From Bacteroidetes bacterium ADurb.Bin217 (GTDB taxonomy: Bacteria; Bacteroidota; Bacteroidia; Bacteroidales; UBA1715): a DNA stretch of 64,000 nucleotides. The notes under the pieces were generated by a model. That model searched no databases. It saw only the letters and a program-made list of their open reading frames with translations, and was not told the DNA's origin. The stretch is from NCBI GenBank assembly GCA_002069975.1, contig MWCJ01000004.1, positions 1 to 64,000 of the forward strand. The letters are read 5' to 3'. This document shows positions 33,777 to 39,591 of this stretch, piece after piece (within the stretch, counting starts at the first letter, position 1; each line of letters starts with the position of its first letter). The translations under genes and the position numbers were made by a program.

Positions 33777-34373
33777 TTAACCTTTATATTTTTTTTCAAA
33801 CGCCTCTATTTCCGGCAATTTGCTTATTAAATAGTCTATATCGTCGAATCCGTTGAGCAAACAATCTTTTTTGTATGCATTGATTTCGAATCCTTCCGAT
33901 TCGTTGGTAGCCACCAAAGTAATTGTTTGGTTTACCAAATCCACTTTAAGTTCAGTTGCAGGATTTGCATCAACTGCTGCAAATATTTTAGCCAAAAATG
34001 CTTCAGAAACTTGTACGGGTAATACACCATTGTTAAGTACATTGTTTTTGAAAATATCGGCAAAAAAGCTTGACACTACTACTTTGAAACCATAGTCGGC
34101 TATGGCCCATGCTGCATGTTCGCGGCTCGATCCACAGCCAAAGTTTTTGCCGCCTACCAATATGCAACCACTATATTTTGGGTTATTTAGCGGAAAATCT
34201 GCTATTGGTTGATTGTTTTTGTCGTATCTCCAGTCGCGGAATAAATTGTCGCCAAATCCTTTTTTATCGGTTGCTTTCAAAAAACGAGCAGGTATAATTT
34301 GGTCAGTATCTATTTCTTCTATTGGAATAGGTACTACACGCGATATTGTTGTTATAAATTTTTCTATTGCCAT
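33777..34373 (-). CDS. leuD: 3-isopropylmalate dehydratase small subunit
   Basis: 198 residues. It is the swivelling domain of the LeuCD isomerase in leucine synthesis. [17 protein letters not shown] and the substrate loop [12 protein letters not shown] (about 75-86) are typical. It follows leuC with 57 AT-rich bases between and is the last gene of the leuA-leuC-leuD transcript. Confidence 0.94.
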
Positions 34374-34430: not shown

Positions 34431-35828
34431 TTATAAAAATTCTCGTGGGTCAGTAATTTTTCCGGTAATAATTGCAGCAGCAGCGGTAAGCGGACTGGCA
34501 AGTATAGTACGAGCTCCCGGACCTTGACGACCTTCGAAGTTACGGTTCGACGTTGCTACACAATATTTACCCGAAGGTACTTTGTCTTCGTTCATTGCCA
34601 AACAACTCGAACAACCCGGTTGGCGAAGTTCTACATCGGCTTCGGCAAATATTTTATCAAGACCTTCTTCTTTTATTTGTTTTTCAACCAAATACGAACC
34701 CGGAACTATATAGGTATTGATATGTGGTGCACGTTTGCGACCTTTAAGCATAGCAGCCAACAATCGGAAATCTTCGATACGACCATTGGTACAACTTCCT
34801 ACAAATACCCAATCTACTTCTTTTCCAAGCAATTGTTGTTCGGGTTCAAACCCCATATATTGTAATGCTTTAACAAATGTATCTTTAGTTGAAGGGTCTA
34901 CCGATGCCAACGAAGGAATTTTATCCGTAATTTTCATACCCAATCCCGGATTGGTTCCGTAGGTAATCATAGGAATAATATCGGCTGCATCGAATGTATA
35001 TTCTTTATCGAATGTAGCATCGGCATCGGAATATAATTGTTTCCATGTTGCTACCGCTTTGTCGAAATCGGCACCTTGTGGAGCATATTTTCTACCTTTT
35101 ACGTAATCAAATGTTTTTTGGTCGGGAGCAATCATGCCACCGCGAGCACCAAGTTCTATACTCATATTACATACTGTCATACGTGCTTCCATACTCATAT
35201 TGCGGATAGTACTTCCTGCATATTCTATAAAATATCCGGTAGCACCACTTGCAGTAAGTTTCGAAAGAATGTATAAAATTACGTCTTTTGAAGTAACTCC
35301 TTTACCAAGTTCACCATCTATGGTAATGCGCATACGTTTTGGTTTTGGCTGCATAATACACTGACTTGCAAATACCATTTCAACCTCGCTGGTACCAACA
35401 CCAAACGCTACCGCACCAAATGCACCGTGTGTAGATGTATGGCTATCGCCACATACTATAGTCATTCCCGGTTGTGTGTACCCCAATTCAGGTCCCACAA
35501 CGTGTACAATGCCATTGAACTCATCGCCCAAACCATAATATGTAATACCATGACGAGCACTATTTTCTTTAAGTTTTTCAACCTGAAATGCCGATAAATA
35601 TTCTTTTATCGGTAAATGTTGATCCATAGTAGGAATGTTGTGATCGGCAGTAGCCGTAATTTGTGAAGGGCGAAACACTTTTCGTCCACGTCCTTCTATT
35701 CCGGTAAATGCTTGGGGACTTGTAACCTCATGAATAAACTGACGGTCGATGTATAATATACTTGGACCATCTTGTATCTCTGTCACCACGTGCGCATCCC
35801 AAATTTTGTCAAATAAGGTTTTTCCCAT
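34431..35828 (-). CDS. leuC: 3-isopropylmalate dehydratase large subunit
   Basis: 465 residues. It is an aconitase-family protein that isomerises 2- to 3-isopropylmalate with LeuD. The [4Fe-4S] ligands are Cys346 (GSCTNGR), Cys406 and Cys409 (PGCSSC). [15 protein letters not shown] and [11 protein letters not shown] are also characteristic. It lies 103 bases downstream of leuA and is probably transcribed with it under the attenuator. Confidence 0.95.
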
Positions 35829-35931: not shown

Positions 35932-37428
35932 TTACTCCATTGATTTACTAATAGCATCAACAAACGCTTCAACCGAAGCTGTTACAATATCGGTATCGGC
36001 ACCAAATCCGTAGTATATAGTTTTGTTACATTCTATTTGCACGTTTACTTGTCCAAAATCGTCGCTGCCATTGTTGAATCCTTGGATTAAAAATTCAAGT
36101 AATTTTATTTCTTTATCAATTAACTTTTTCACGGCATTGTACGAAGCATCTACCGGACCATCACCCATAGCTGTTTCGGTTTTGGTTTCGCCTTGTATGA
36201 TTAACGACACTGTAGCCGACGGAATCATAGATTTACCACATACTACTTGCAACGAATCCAATTTAATGGCACGATTGGCATCGCGTTGTTCTTTGCCTAC
36301 CAATACTAGTAAATCGTTGTCTTTTACTTCTTTTTTCACATCGGCTAAATGCAAAAAGTCTTGATATGTTTTGTCTAAATCGGCACCGTCAATTTTGAAT
36401 CCCAACAATTCCAAACGATGGCGTAACGCAGCACGTCCACTACGAGCGGTAAGGATAATAGACGATTCGTCAACACCTACATCTTTTGGGTCAATAATTT
36501 CGTAATTCTCACGATTTTTCAATACTCCGTCTTGATGTATTCCCGATGAATGAGCAAATGCATTTTTACCTACAATTGCTTTGTTTGCTTGCACGGGACT
36601 TTTCATTAACCGTTGCACCAAACGGCTGGTTTGCAAAATACGAGGAGTAACAATATCGGTATACACACCTAATTTATGGCTTTTTATTGCCATTACCACT
36701 TCTTCTAAAGCAGTGTTCCCGGCACGTTCACCTACACCGTTCAAAGTTACTTCCACCTGTCGAGCACCATTATATACCCCCGACATGGTGTTGGCAGTAG
36801 CCATTCCCAAATCGTTGTGGCAATGGGTAGAAAGAATAGCTTTGTGAATATTTGGCACATTATCAATTAAATATTTAATTTTTGCACCATATTCATGTGG
36901 TAAGCAATAGCCGGTAGTATCGGGGATATTAACTACGGTAGCACCTGCAGCAATTACTGCTTCTACCATGCGAGCAAGATATTCATTTTCGCTTCGTCCT
37001 GCATCTTCACAATAGAATTCAATATCTTCTACAAATTTTTTGGCATATTTTACGGCATCAACACCACGGCGAATAATTTCTTCGGGTGTAGAATTTAATT
37101 TAGACACAATATGATACGGAGACACGCCAATACCGGTATGAATTCGCGGGCGTTTTGCATATTTAAGTGCATCGGCTGCTACTTCAATATCTTTTTGTAC
37201 TGCACGGGTCAATCCGCAGATAATGGGATTGGTAACAGCTTTTGATATTTGCACTACCGAATCGAAATCACCGGGACTCGAAATTGGAAATCCTGCTTCG
37301 ATAATGTCAACACCAAGGAGTTCTAAAGCTTTTGCAACTTCAATTTTTTCAACCATGTTTAATTGATTTCCCGGAGCTTGTTCGCCATCTCGCAATGTAG
37401 TGTCGAACACAAAAACTTTATCATTCAT
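35932..37428 (-). CDS. leuA: 2-isopropylmalate synthase
   Basis: 498 residues. It condenses acetyl-CoA with 2-oxoisovalerate, the first committed step to leucine. [13 protein letters not shown] gives catalytic Arg13 and metal ligand Asp14; the HCHNDLGMA motif supplies the two metal-binding His. A C-terminal LeuA dimer (allosteric, leucine-binding) domain follows from about residue 360. It is slightly shorter than E. coli LeuA (523) but complete. The gene is preceded by a leader peptide and attenuator, so leucine should control it twice, at transcription and by feedback. Confidence 0.95.
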
Positions 37429-37452
37429 ATCTGTTAATTTTTAAATATTTCA

Positions 37453-37491
37453 CAAAAAACAAAAACCCCCAAAGCTTAGTAGCAAAGGGGG
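37453..37491 (-). terminator. attenuator terminator of the leuA leader
   Basis: On the minus strand CCCCC (37487-37491) pairs with GGGGG (37466-37470) around an inner GC/GC pair, followed by TTTTTGTTTTTTG. An upstream segment AGGGGG (37542-37547) can pair with the same CCCCC and so prevent terminator formation. Confidence 0.75.
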
Positions 37492-37541
37492 CTTCTTAGT
37501 AATTTTATTATTGTTACTCATATTACTGCATAAACCAACAA

Positions 37542-37550
37542 CCCCCTAGC
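37542..37550 (-). promoter_or_regulatory. antiterminator arm of the leu leader
   Basis: GCTAGGGGG on the minus strand can pair with CCCCCTTTGC at the start of the terminator. The adjacent GGTTG (37539-37543) can alternatively pair with CAACC (37569-37573), which lies inside the leader peptide codons. These are the three mutually exclusive helices expected of ribosome-mediated attenuation. Confidence 0.6.
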
Positions 37551-37551
37551 A

Positions 37552-37599
37552 TTAGCTAATGAGCAGCAGGTTGAGTAATATGGTAATTATTTGATTCAT
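37552..37599 (-). CDS. leuL: leucine-rich leader peptide of leuACD
   Basis: A 15-codon frame reading MNQIITILLNLLLIS then TAA. Five of 15 codons are Leu and four are Ile. The Leu codons are TTA CTC, then CTG CTG CTC after one Asn; CTG and CTC appear uncommon in this AT-rich region, where TTA and TTG are frequent. The stop lies in the perfect palindrome CATTAGCTAATG (37550-37561). A starved ribosome stalled on these codons would cover the CAACC arm, free the AGGGGG arm and block the terminator. The gene lies about 19 bases after a consensus promoter and ends 124 bases before leuA. It is too short for homology, but position, codons and structures agree. Confidence 0.75.
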   Translation of the reverse strand: MNQIITILLNLLLIS

Positions 37600-37617
37600 A
37601 TATTTGTTTATTTGATG

Positions 37618-37648
37618 CAAATTTATTTTAATTTATATAATAGTCAAA
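37618..37648 (-). promoter_or_regulatory. promoter of leuL-leuA-leuC-leuD
   Basis: On the minus strand TTTG (37645-37648), exactly 19 bases, then TAAATTTG (37618-37625), a full Bacteroidota consensus. Expected transcription start is near 37612, about 13 bases before the leader peptide ATG. It separates leu genes from the upstream cysN. Confidence 0.7.
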
Positions 37649-37674: not shown

Positions 37675-39591
37675 TTATTTTTTATATCCTTTTTCGGTTA
37701 TATAAACGAGTATTTTTTGAACATTATCTTCTATATCCTGAGGTTTACAAACTATATGAGCTTGCTGTGGGATGTCGTAATTACAATCTACTCCAGGTAA
37801 ATTATCAATAGTTCCTTGTTCTATACGTTTGTACAACTCGGGTTTGTTTTGTTTGCAATAACTCAAATCGGCATCCATATATACCAATGTAAATCTGTGT
37901 TCGCCAATAATTGTAGCTACTTGCTTACGTACAGTATCATCGGCCGAAATAAACGAACAAATAGTAATAATACCTTGATCATTCAATACTTTACAAACTT
38001 CGGCAACACGACGTAAATTTTCGGCTCTGTCGACTGGCGAAAAATCAAGTTCTTTCGATAAGCCACTACGAACAGTACTTCCGTCGAATAATACGATCAC
38101 CGCATCTTGATTGAACAATTGTCGTTCAAGCGAATATGCCAGTTGGTTTTTGCCTGAACCATGTAATCCGGTTATCCATATAGTAGAGCCCTTTTGGCGA
38201 TATCGAGTTTCGTATTCTTGTTCAGATATTAATCCAATACCGGTATCTATCTTTTGTTTATCGGCATCGGTAATTCGTTGTGGCAATCCGTCGGCATGAA
38301 TTTTATCTAAAATCATTCCTACCGCACATGTATTATGTGATACAGGGTCAATTAACACAAATGAACCTGTATTTCTATTTTTTTTGTATGCATCGAAAAA
38401 TAATGGTTTTACCGTAGTAATAACTACACGACCAATTTCATTAAGTTCTAAATGTGTTACATCAAATTTTTCGAGCGAATTCACATCAACTTTGTATCGA
38501 ATGGTATCAAACCGAGCTTTTGTTGTATTTGTATTATGTTTTATATAAAACTGTGTTGATGGATTCATTGGTTTTTCATCCATCCACACCAACATAGCTT
38601 CAAATTGACGCTCTACATGTGGTAAATTATCAGGGTGAACTAACATTTCACCTCGCGAAATATCTATTTCGTGAGCCAAAGTAACGGTAACCGATTGTGG
38701 TGGAAAAGCTTGTTCTAATTCGCCATCGTAAGTAACAATAGATGTAACTGTAGATGTTTTACGCGAAGGCAGCACCATTACCGTGTCACCTTTTTTTATA
38801 ATTCCCGAAGCTACTTTAGCACAAAATCCACGAAAATCGCGATCGGGACGAGATACATATTGTACCGGATACCGTAAATCTTCGAAATTTCTATCGCTGC
38901 TTATATGAACTGTTTCCAAAAAGTCGAGCATACATTTACCTTTGTACCATGCCATTTTTTGTGATGCATCTACCACATTGTCTCCTTTGAGAGCAGAAAG
39001 AGGAATAAACTGAACATCAGGAATATCGAGTTGCGAAACAAATTGTTTGTATTCTTCGCAAATTTCGTGAAACCGCGATTCACTAAAATCTACTAAATCC
39101 ATTTTATTTACCGCTAATACCACATGTTTAATTCCCAATAACGAAACTAAAAAAGTATGACGGCGTGTTTGTGTAATTACACCTTTGGTAGCATCTACAA
39201 GAACTATGGCTAAATTTGCTGTAGAAGCACCGGTTACCATGTTACGAGTATATTGCTCGTGACCGGGAGTATCGGCAATTATAAATTTTCGTTTATTCGT
39301 AGAAAAATATCGATATGCTACATCTATGGTAATTCCCTGTTCTCGCTCTGCTTTTAGACCATCGAGTAATAATGCATAATCTATATCTTCGCCGGCATGA
39401 CCTATTCGTTTGCTGTCGCGTTCCAAAGCAGCAAGTTGATCTTCGTAAATCATTTTACTGTCGAACATCAATCGCCCTATAAGAGTAGATTTGCCATCGT
39501 CTACCGAACCACACGTAAGCAATCGAAGAAGATCTTTCTTCTCGTCACGATTTAAAAATTCTTGAATATCTATTTTTGAATTATTTTCCAT
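37675..39591 (-). CDS. cysN: sulfate adenylyltransferase subunit 1 fused to an APS kinase-like domain
   Basis: 638 residues. Residues about 15-440 are the GTPase subunit of ATP sulfurylase: P-loop GSVDDGKST (28-36), DTPGHEQY and NKMD. Residues 467-638 resemble APS kinase ([36 protein letters not shown]). However, the kinase P-loop reads GSGKN: Asn482 replaces the usual Ser/Thr, and the FISPFRADR-type block that carries the phosphate-accepting Ser reads FISADDTVR. The sulfurylase half looks fully functional; the kinase half may be weak, altered or structural. With CysD it makes APS from sulfate and ATP. Confidence 0.9.

Follow-up and report, generated by a model that had tools for sequence, protein, structure and literature searches.

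How is the leucine operon leuACD of this uncultured member of the Bacteroidales controlled? Its genes are encoded on the minus strand of the analysed stretch of 64,000 nucleotides, referred to here as the window. The first regulated gene, leuA (35932..37428, with its ATG at 37428), encodes 2-isopropylmalate synthase. It is followed by leuC (34431..35828) and leuD (33777..34373) for the large and small subunits of 3-isopropylmalate dehydratase. These identities were assigned with the curated cut-offs of NCBIfam, namely TIGR00973 for leuA (677 bits, cut-off 598.7), TIGR00170 for leuC and TIGR00171 for leuD, the latter two likewise above cut-off. The upstream neighbour on the same strand, a cysN-cysC fusion, ends at 37675, and leuA thus has its own leader region of 246 nt. 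A first-pass annotation had described this region as a leucine leader peptide with a transcription attenuator. Sequence comparison and modelling now make it highly probable that a ribosome-mediated transcription attenuator controls leuACD. From the anatomy, conservation, covariation and geometry of the region we infer translation of the leader frame, termination in vivo and a response to leucine.

Anatomy of the leuA leader

Base-by-base reading upstream of leuA located every element that had been listed for the minus strand, i.e., the promoter, the 15-codon frame, the palindrome, AGGGGG, CCCCC, GGGGG and the T-run. The promoter (37618..37648) consists of TTTG at 37648-37645, a 19-nt spacer and the -7 box TAAATTTG at 37625-37618, and by its sequence this combination is a Bacteroidota promoter. 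The relevant passages of a study on Flavobacterium psychrophilum assign the -7 box to positions -12 to -5 relative to the transcription start (PMC9723704). Transcription is therefore predicted to start near 37613, 14 nt 5' of the leader ATG at 37599. No Shine-Dalgarno-like sequence was seen in this 5' UTR of about 14 nt.

The leader frame MNQIITILLNLLLIS (37552..37599, minus strand) comprises 15 codons and the stop codon TAA (37554-37552), and reads ATG AAT CAA ATA ATT ACC ATA TTA CTC AAC CTG CTG CTC ATT AGC TAA. Five of the 15 residues are leucine (TTA CTC CTG CTG CTC) and four are isoleucine (ATA ATT ATA ATT; codons 4, 5, 7, and 14). The stop codon is spanned by the palindrome ATTAGCTAAT.

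Strand 1 lies inside these Ile and Leu codons and consists of CATATTACT and CAACC, with AGTAATATG and GGTTG as the respective partners. The CAACC/GGTTG pairing of the first hairpin had been recognised before, while its strongest part had been overlooked. In the minimum free energy structure, CATATTACT (37582-37574, within the codons ACC ATA TTA CTC) is perfectly complementary to AGTAATATG (37527-37519), the 3' arm of a protector hairpin predicted for the ribosome-free RNA. This is the longest uninterrupted helix in the hairpin and extends the known pairing. Inspection by eye revealed similar pairings containing CATA in two other genera of the family, g2 and g4. The segment AGTAAT in AGTAATATG can instead pair with ATTACT (37503-37498), which is located inside the antiterminator.

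Strand 2, AGGGGG(UU), begins 4 nt past the stop codon (37542..37547) and is the antiterminator partner of strand 3, as indicated by a pairing search and by covariation. Strand 3, AGAAGCCCCC (37487..37496), includes CCCCC at 37491-37487 and is common to the antiterminator and the terminator. The search for strands 2, 3 and 4 returned AGGGGGTT with AGCCCCCT as the antiterminator pairing. According to folding, strand 4, GGGGGTTTTT (37470-37461), forms the 3' arm of the terminator and, together with the T tract (T's at 37459-37454), makes up the predicted termination site (37454..37470). The three leader RNA strands thus pair in mutually exclusive ways, the last pairing being the terminator with its T tract.

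Folding energies indicate that an intrinsic terminator sits between the leader frame and leuA. The terminator hairpin (37496-37461) has a predicted stability of -18.3 kcal/mol (z = -3.83) and the whole leader fold reaches z = -4.46; in both cases 0 of 200 shuffles were as good. The antiterminator on its own is unremarkable in stability (z -0.68). A three-strand arrangement occurs in about 3% of shuffles of the window leader, none of which attains the real score. The leuA leader hairpin was absent from the output of a consensus terminator scan, a miss that is probably explained by the symmetric UUU/UUU internal loop interrupting its stem.

Conservation and covariation in relatives

The comparison of leuA upstream regions that had been proposed as a check covered 60 relative genomes and a species-genome collection, giving 110 leuA loci, two of which (L031 and L032) duplicate genomes of the window's family. 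It recovered both the short Leu frame and compensatory changes in the helices. A Leu-rich short frame is located upstream of leuA in all 14 genomes of the family, with peptides such as MNQIITILLNLLLIS, MTTTNNILLLSLLLSK, MNKTIIILSIILLA and MKTFCIDILLLLLVSTR encoded by differing nucleotide sequences. The automatic search found the arrangement of strands 2, 3 and 4 in 13 of them, and dinucleotide shuffles of the family sequences contained it in 0-8% of cases, none as strong. The fourteenth (L007) escaped the filter, which demanded an unbroken run of six pairs, and was picked up by a relaxed search.

With the strict filter, the arrangement combined with a Leu/Ile/Val-rich frame was present in 39 of 110 leuA regions vs 2 of 258 control genes (p = 7e-21). 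The relaxed filter gave the full arrangement in 61 of 110 leuA upstream regions, mainly of Bacteroidales, a count that is descriptive only, as the selection itself includes the frame. Two relaxed hits, L041 and L068, look spurious and were excluded from the later folding test.

Because the G-runs of strand 2 were misaligned by MAFFT, pair counts were based on registers verified against the ungapped sequences. Across six core columns in the 14 family genomes, 77 of 84 cells are paired in the antiterminator and 84 of 84 in the terminator. When strands were permuted among species, the observed pair count was never reached (0/5000); this outcome is not a probability, since the species are related, but the changes do fall on separate genera. 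By genus, the cores of strands 2, 3 and 4 read GGGGG/CCCCC/GGGGG, GGAGG/CCTCC/GGAGG, GAGGG/CCCTC/GAGGG and AAGGGG/CCCCTT/GGGG. In columns 2, 4, and 5, both partners of a pair are substituted in different genera, with strands 2 and 4 changing together, and thus the three strands covary. The covariation points to selection on a mutually exclusive antiterminator that shares the 5' arm of the terminator. Together with the Leu-rich frame, the covarying helices support the earlier reading of the region as a leader-peptide attenuator.

These observations also bear on whether the hairpin could be an ordinary terminator or an RNA-stability element, with the short frame being incidental. Terminators do occur in intergenic regions of Bacteroidota, and the strand arrangement without the frame requirement is found upstream of 23 of 258 control genes. 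Against this, the frame, the type of amino acid, the promoter and the pairing of strands 2, 3 and 4 are conserved and shift together, which renders an incidental frame extremely improbable.

The promoter is conserved along with the attenuator. In 54 of 61 loci, a TAnnTTTG box is located no more than 80 nt 5' of the leader ATG, compared with 6% of shuffles; in 14 of 14 family genomes this distance is 5-23 nt. The gap between box and ATG is 5 nt in G003, G010, G011, and G013, and 8 nt in G006, G008, and G012. With gaps of 5-8 nt, the leader frames of these seven family members would start about 1-4 nt after the transcription start. Judged from box positions, their leader frames thus appear to be translated after a 5' UTR of 1-4 nt, and the transcripts would be almost leaderless. 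At the loci L008-L014 of genus g3, no more than 5-8 nt separate the end of the promoter box from the leader ATG.

At leuA loci lacking a detected leader, a long ORF on the same strand ends at most 200 nt upstream of leuA in 26 of 48 cases vs 5 of 59 with a leader (p = 3e-7). Such an upstream ORF would fit an operon-internal position of leuA at these loci, and the attenuator arrangement is rarer for leuA genes in that position. Several of the ORFs upstream of leuA at loci without a leader end like ilvC, as judged by eye.

Gene order downstream of leuA also varies. In the family, no leuC was detected in the 1.5 kb past leuA (2.5 kb in L031) at L003-L005, L008-L011, L013, L014, and L031, and the leader is retained; in G007 (L031), hisG comes after leuA instead of leuC. 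At Bacteroides-like loci such as L076, L085, L097, L107, and L108, the leader frame extends across strand 2, and a conserved ..GSE(C/Y).. tail (GGAAGTGAG) is encoded by this strand. The antiterminator strand is therefore itself coding there.

Ribosome position and the amino acid sensed

In the proposed mechanism, RNA polymerase would start near 37613 and a ribosome would begin the leader frame at once. With ample charged tRNA-Leu, the ribosome would reach the stop codon and cover AGGGGG just beyond it, upon which CCCCC would pair with GGGGG and transcription would end at the T tract. When Leu-tRNA is short, it would halt on the codons TTA CTC or CTG CTG CTC, covering strand 1 (CATATTACT and CAACC) and leaving AGGGGG free to pair with CCCCC before GGGGG is made, with readthrough into leuA. 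If no ribosome is loaded, the long strand-1 hairpin would hold AGGGGG and the terminator would form.

This scheme was modelled by folding the RNA ahead of the ribosome codon by codon, with the leading edge assumed to lie 13 nt beyond the first nucleotide of the A-site codon. When strand 4 was included, equilibrium folding favoured the terminator of the window at every ribosome position (P(term) 0.98), while the leaders of five family members (G003, G004, G010, G011, and G013) still flip at the Leu codons. In the window, switching would thus depend on the antiterminator folding ahead of the terminator, as it does in the classic model, and a second calculation was therefore made with RNA up to strand 4 but excluding it. 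For the window, this gave a predicted antiterminator probability of 0.00 on ribosome-free RNA, about 0.66 when the ribosome occupied the Ile/Leu cluster and 0.14 when it had reached the stop codon. A value of 0.7 was attained as early as the second Ile codon and persisted to the last Leu. In 57 of 57 loci, the modelled probability was higher at the cluster than at the stop. A ribosome at the regulatory codons is thus predicted to free the antiterminator strand, and a ribosome at the stop codon to mask it. The interval between the last cluster codon and the fall in antiterminator probability (mean 3.3 codons, sd 2.4) was set aside as support, its spread being barely tighter than that of the interval measured to the stop (sd 3.3).

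Geometry that tracks ribosome position in the model speaks against another RNA mechanism of the type suggested for the actinobacterial LEU element, such as a leader-binding protein or control of leuA translation initiation. LEU elements do show that an upstream run of Leu codons may occur in a leader that is not a classical attenuator (PMC1262725), and, as cited there, a look-alike leuA leader of Streptomyces coelicolor failed mutational tests of attenuation, which counts against the attenuator. In the leader studied here, a terminator with a T tract is located just before leuA, a feature undescribed for LEU elements, and the predicted pseudoknot-free fold leaves the Leu codons unpaired with the leuA start. 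Assignment to the LEU element was rejected on these two points, and a mechanism of this kind is considered very improbable.

The use of CTG and CTC in an AT-rich genome had been singled out by the first-pass annotation, and this was borne out: they make up 4 of the 5 Leu codons of the peptide vs 24 of the 287 Leu codons in nine genes of the window (p = 3e-4). In the pooled peptides of the family, which are non-independent, 36 of 72 Leu codons are CTC or CTG. This rare-codon use parallels the Salmonella leu leader, in which changes from CUA to CUG lowered sensitivity (PMC1183508). It is plausible that the CTC and CTG codons sharpen sensitivity to leucine, depending on the tRNA levels of the host.

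The four Ile codons had raised the possibility that the attenuator senses isoleucine besides leucine, and that the operon would answer to general branched-chain starvation. LeuBCD also serve isoleucine synthesis where a CimA-type gene acts. In the model, stalls at the ATA and ATT codons 4, 5, 7, and 14 also expose the antiterminator, and the codon preceding the Leu run is ATA in 14 of 14 family members, a conservation that may reflect its place in strand 1. Several Ile codons are retained in the peptides of g1, the genus of the window, and of g2, while those of g3 and g4 contain almost only Leu (mostly 1-3 Ile vs 4-7 Leu). Peptides outside the family are rich in both residues, e.g., ILLLGIIILL at Bacteroides-like loci and LLNGLIIIRL in Prevotella, and a CimA-like gene is found downstream of leuD in most checkable operons outside the family. 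This correlation between Leu and Ile in the peptide and the CimA-like gene rests on essentially one clade. Within the family, the CimA-like gene (best match CimA, with 676 bits under its cut-off of 950) is located elsewhere, and a search for a leader in front of it found none. The modelled stalls and the peptides outside the family thus speak for dual sensing and the peptides of g3 and g4 against it, which leaves it a possible reading that we hold with some doubt.

Leaders of other operons and relation to known systems

The same genome contains comparable frames in front of other amino-acid operons. An Ile/Val frame, MNRIINIVLVVVVISSIQRKV, precedes ilvD, a His frame ending in MKHIHHHIQ precedes hisG, and a Trp frame, MVQQLHIWWWRLQILIVR, precedes trpE. 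The leader amino acid agrees with the pathway in four operons (leuA, ilvD, hisG, and trpE), a further argument against an ordinary terminator with an incidental frame. In relatives, hisG follows MIHHHSI and ilvD follows VVVV-type frames, and terminators can be recognised in these sequences. An IWWW frame before trpE was not found in family genera g3 and g4, and aspartokinase genes (thrA-type, lysC) in the family showed no convincing leader.

Individual loci can be described as follows. The ilvD leader MNRIINIVLVVVVISSIQRKV is L128 (G000:C28 around 24007). Relatives in L125-L136 have Val/Ile-rich frames, e.g., MLLETVFVVVVDVIQ, and a three-strand arrangement of GAATGGTG, CACCATTC and TGGTGC with a T tract was seen by eye in ilvD leaders. 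For hisG, L147 (G000:C33 around 19106) and the relatives L140, L142, L143, L145, L146, and L148 have His-run frames accompanied by a hairpin with a long T tract. Short IWWW frames precede trpE at L155 (G000:C1 around 48162), L151, L159, and L160.

These leaders may belong to a whole attenuation regulon in Bacteroidales for Leu or Leu+Ile, Ile/Val, His and Trp. Its frames would lie a few bases to a few dozen from the 5' end, would lack a Shine-Dalgarno sequence, and the choice between Leu and Leu+Ile would follow the presence of a citramalate synthase gene in the operon. We regard this wider reading as finely balanced, leaning slightly towards doubt. If true, transcription and translation would be tightly coupled in the phylum from the first codons.

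Searches of Rfam with the window leader and with 13 leuA loci returned no family match; the window leader matched neither the T-box riboswitch model nor, at the gathering threshold or among hits to E = 5, Leu_leader (RF00512). Sub-threshold hits to ohsC, rnk and His_leader were weak and judged to be due to chance.

The closest known system in design is leuL of E. coli and Salmonella, in which a run of Leu codons is combined with mutually exclusive protector, antiterminator and terminator strands, and the terminator is located just before leuA. The leader described here shares the run of rare Leu codons (for leu leader codons, see PMC1183508), the exclusive strands and the terminator adjoining leuA with leuL (RF00512). 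It differs in its length of 15 codons, its Bacteroidota promoter, the absence of a visible Shine-Dalgarno-like sequence, the identity of its rare codons (CTC/CTG, not CUA) and the lack of a covariance-model match. The actinobacterial LEU element likewise has a leader frame with a Leu run upstream of leuA, but its pseudoknot pairs the Leu codons with the Shine-Dalgarno sequence of leuA, and mutational data speak against attenuation (PMC1262725). The ilv-leu attenuator of Staphylococcus aureus also combines an Ile+Leu-rich frame, resembling the Ile+Leu peptides of other Bacteroidales, with a terminator and a predicted antiterminator; it is located upstream of ilvD and its antiterminator pairs with the U tail, not with the 5' arm of the terminator (PMC5794164).

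For a long time, documented cases of leader-peptide attenuation came mostly from Proteobacteria and Actinobacteria, and in Bacteroidota there have so far been only hints of it. An older comparative survey by Lopatovskaya et al. from 2010 may already list cases from Bacteroidetes. Another survey from 2010 stated that, prior to its own case from Firmicutes, leader-peptide systems had been demonstrated in Proteobacteria and Actinobacteria alone (PMC2965389), and short frames resembling leader peptides are mentioned in a map of B. thetaiotaomicron (PMC7366714). The covarying leuA set, together with the Ile/Val, His and Trp leaders of one genome, provides targets for the question of whether ribosomes stay close behind RNA polymerase in Bacteroidota. 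It also aids the annotation of many unlabelled short frames in gut bacteria, including Bacteroides and Prevotella. The nearest precedent within the phylum is a 2021 study of F. psychrophilum, whose relevant passages report 'strong clues' of leader-peptide attenuators upstream of amino-acid operons and agree with the present case in the proposed mechanism and the TAnnTTTG promoter type (PMC9723704). That report concerns one species of another order, and leuA is unnamed in those passages. The mechanism itself is classic and known from other bacteria, and its recurrence in Bacteroidota, as indicated here by sequence comparison, is little described in the open-access literature.
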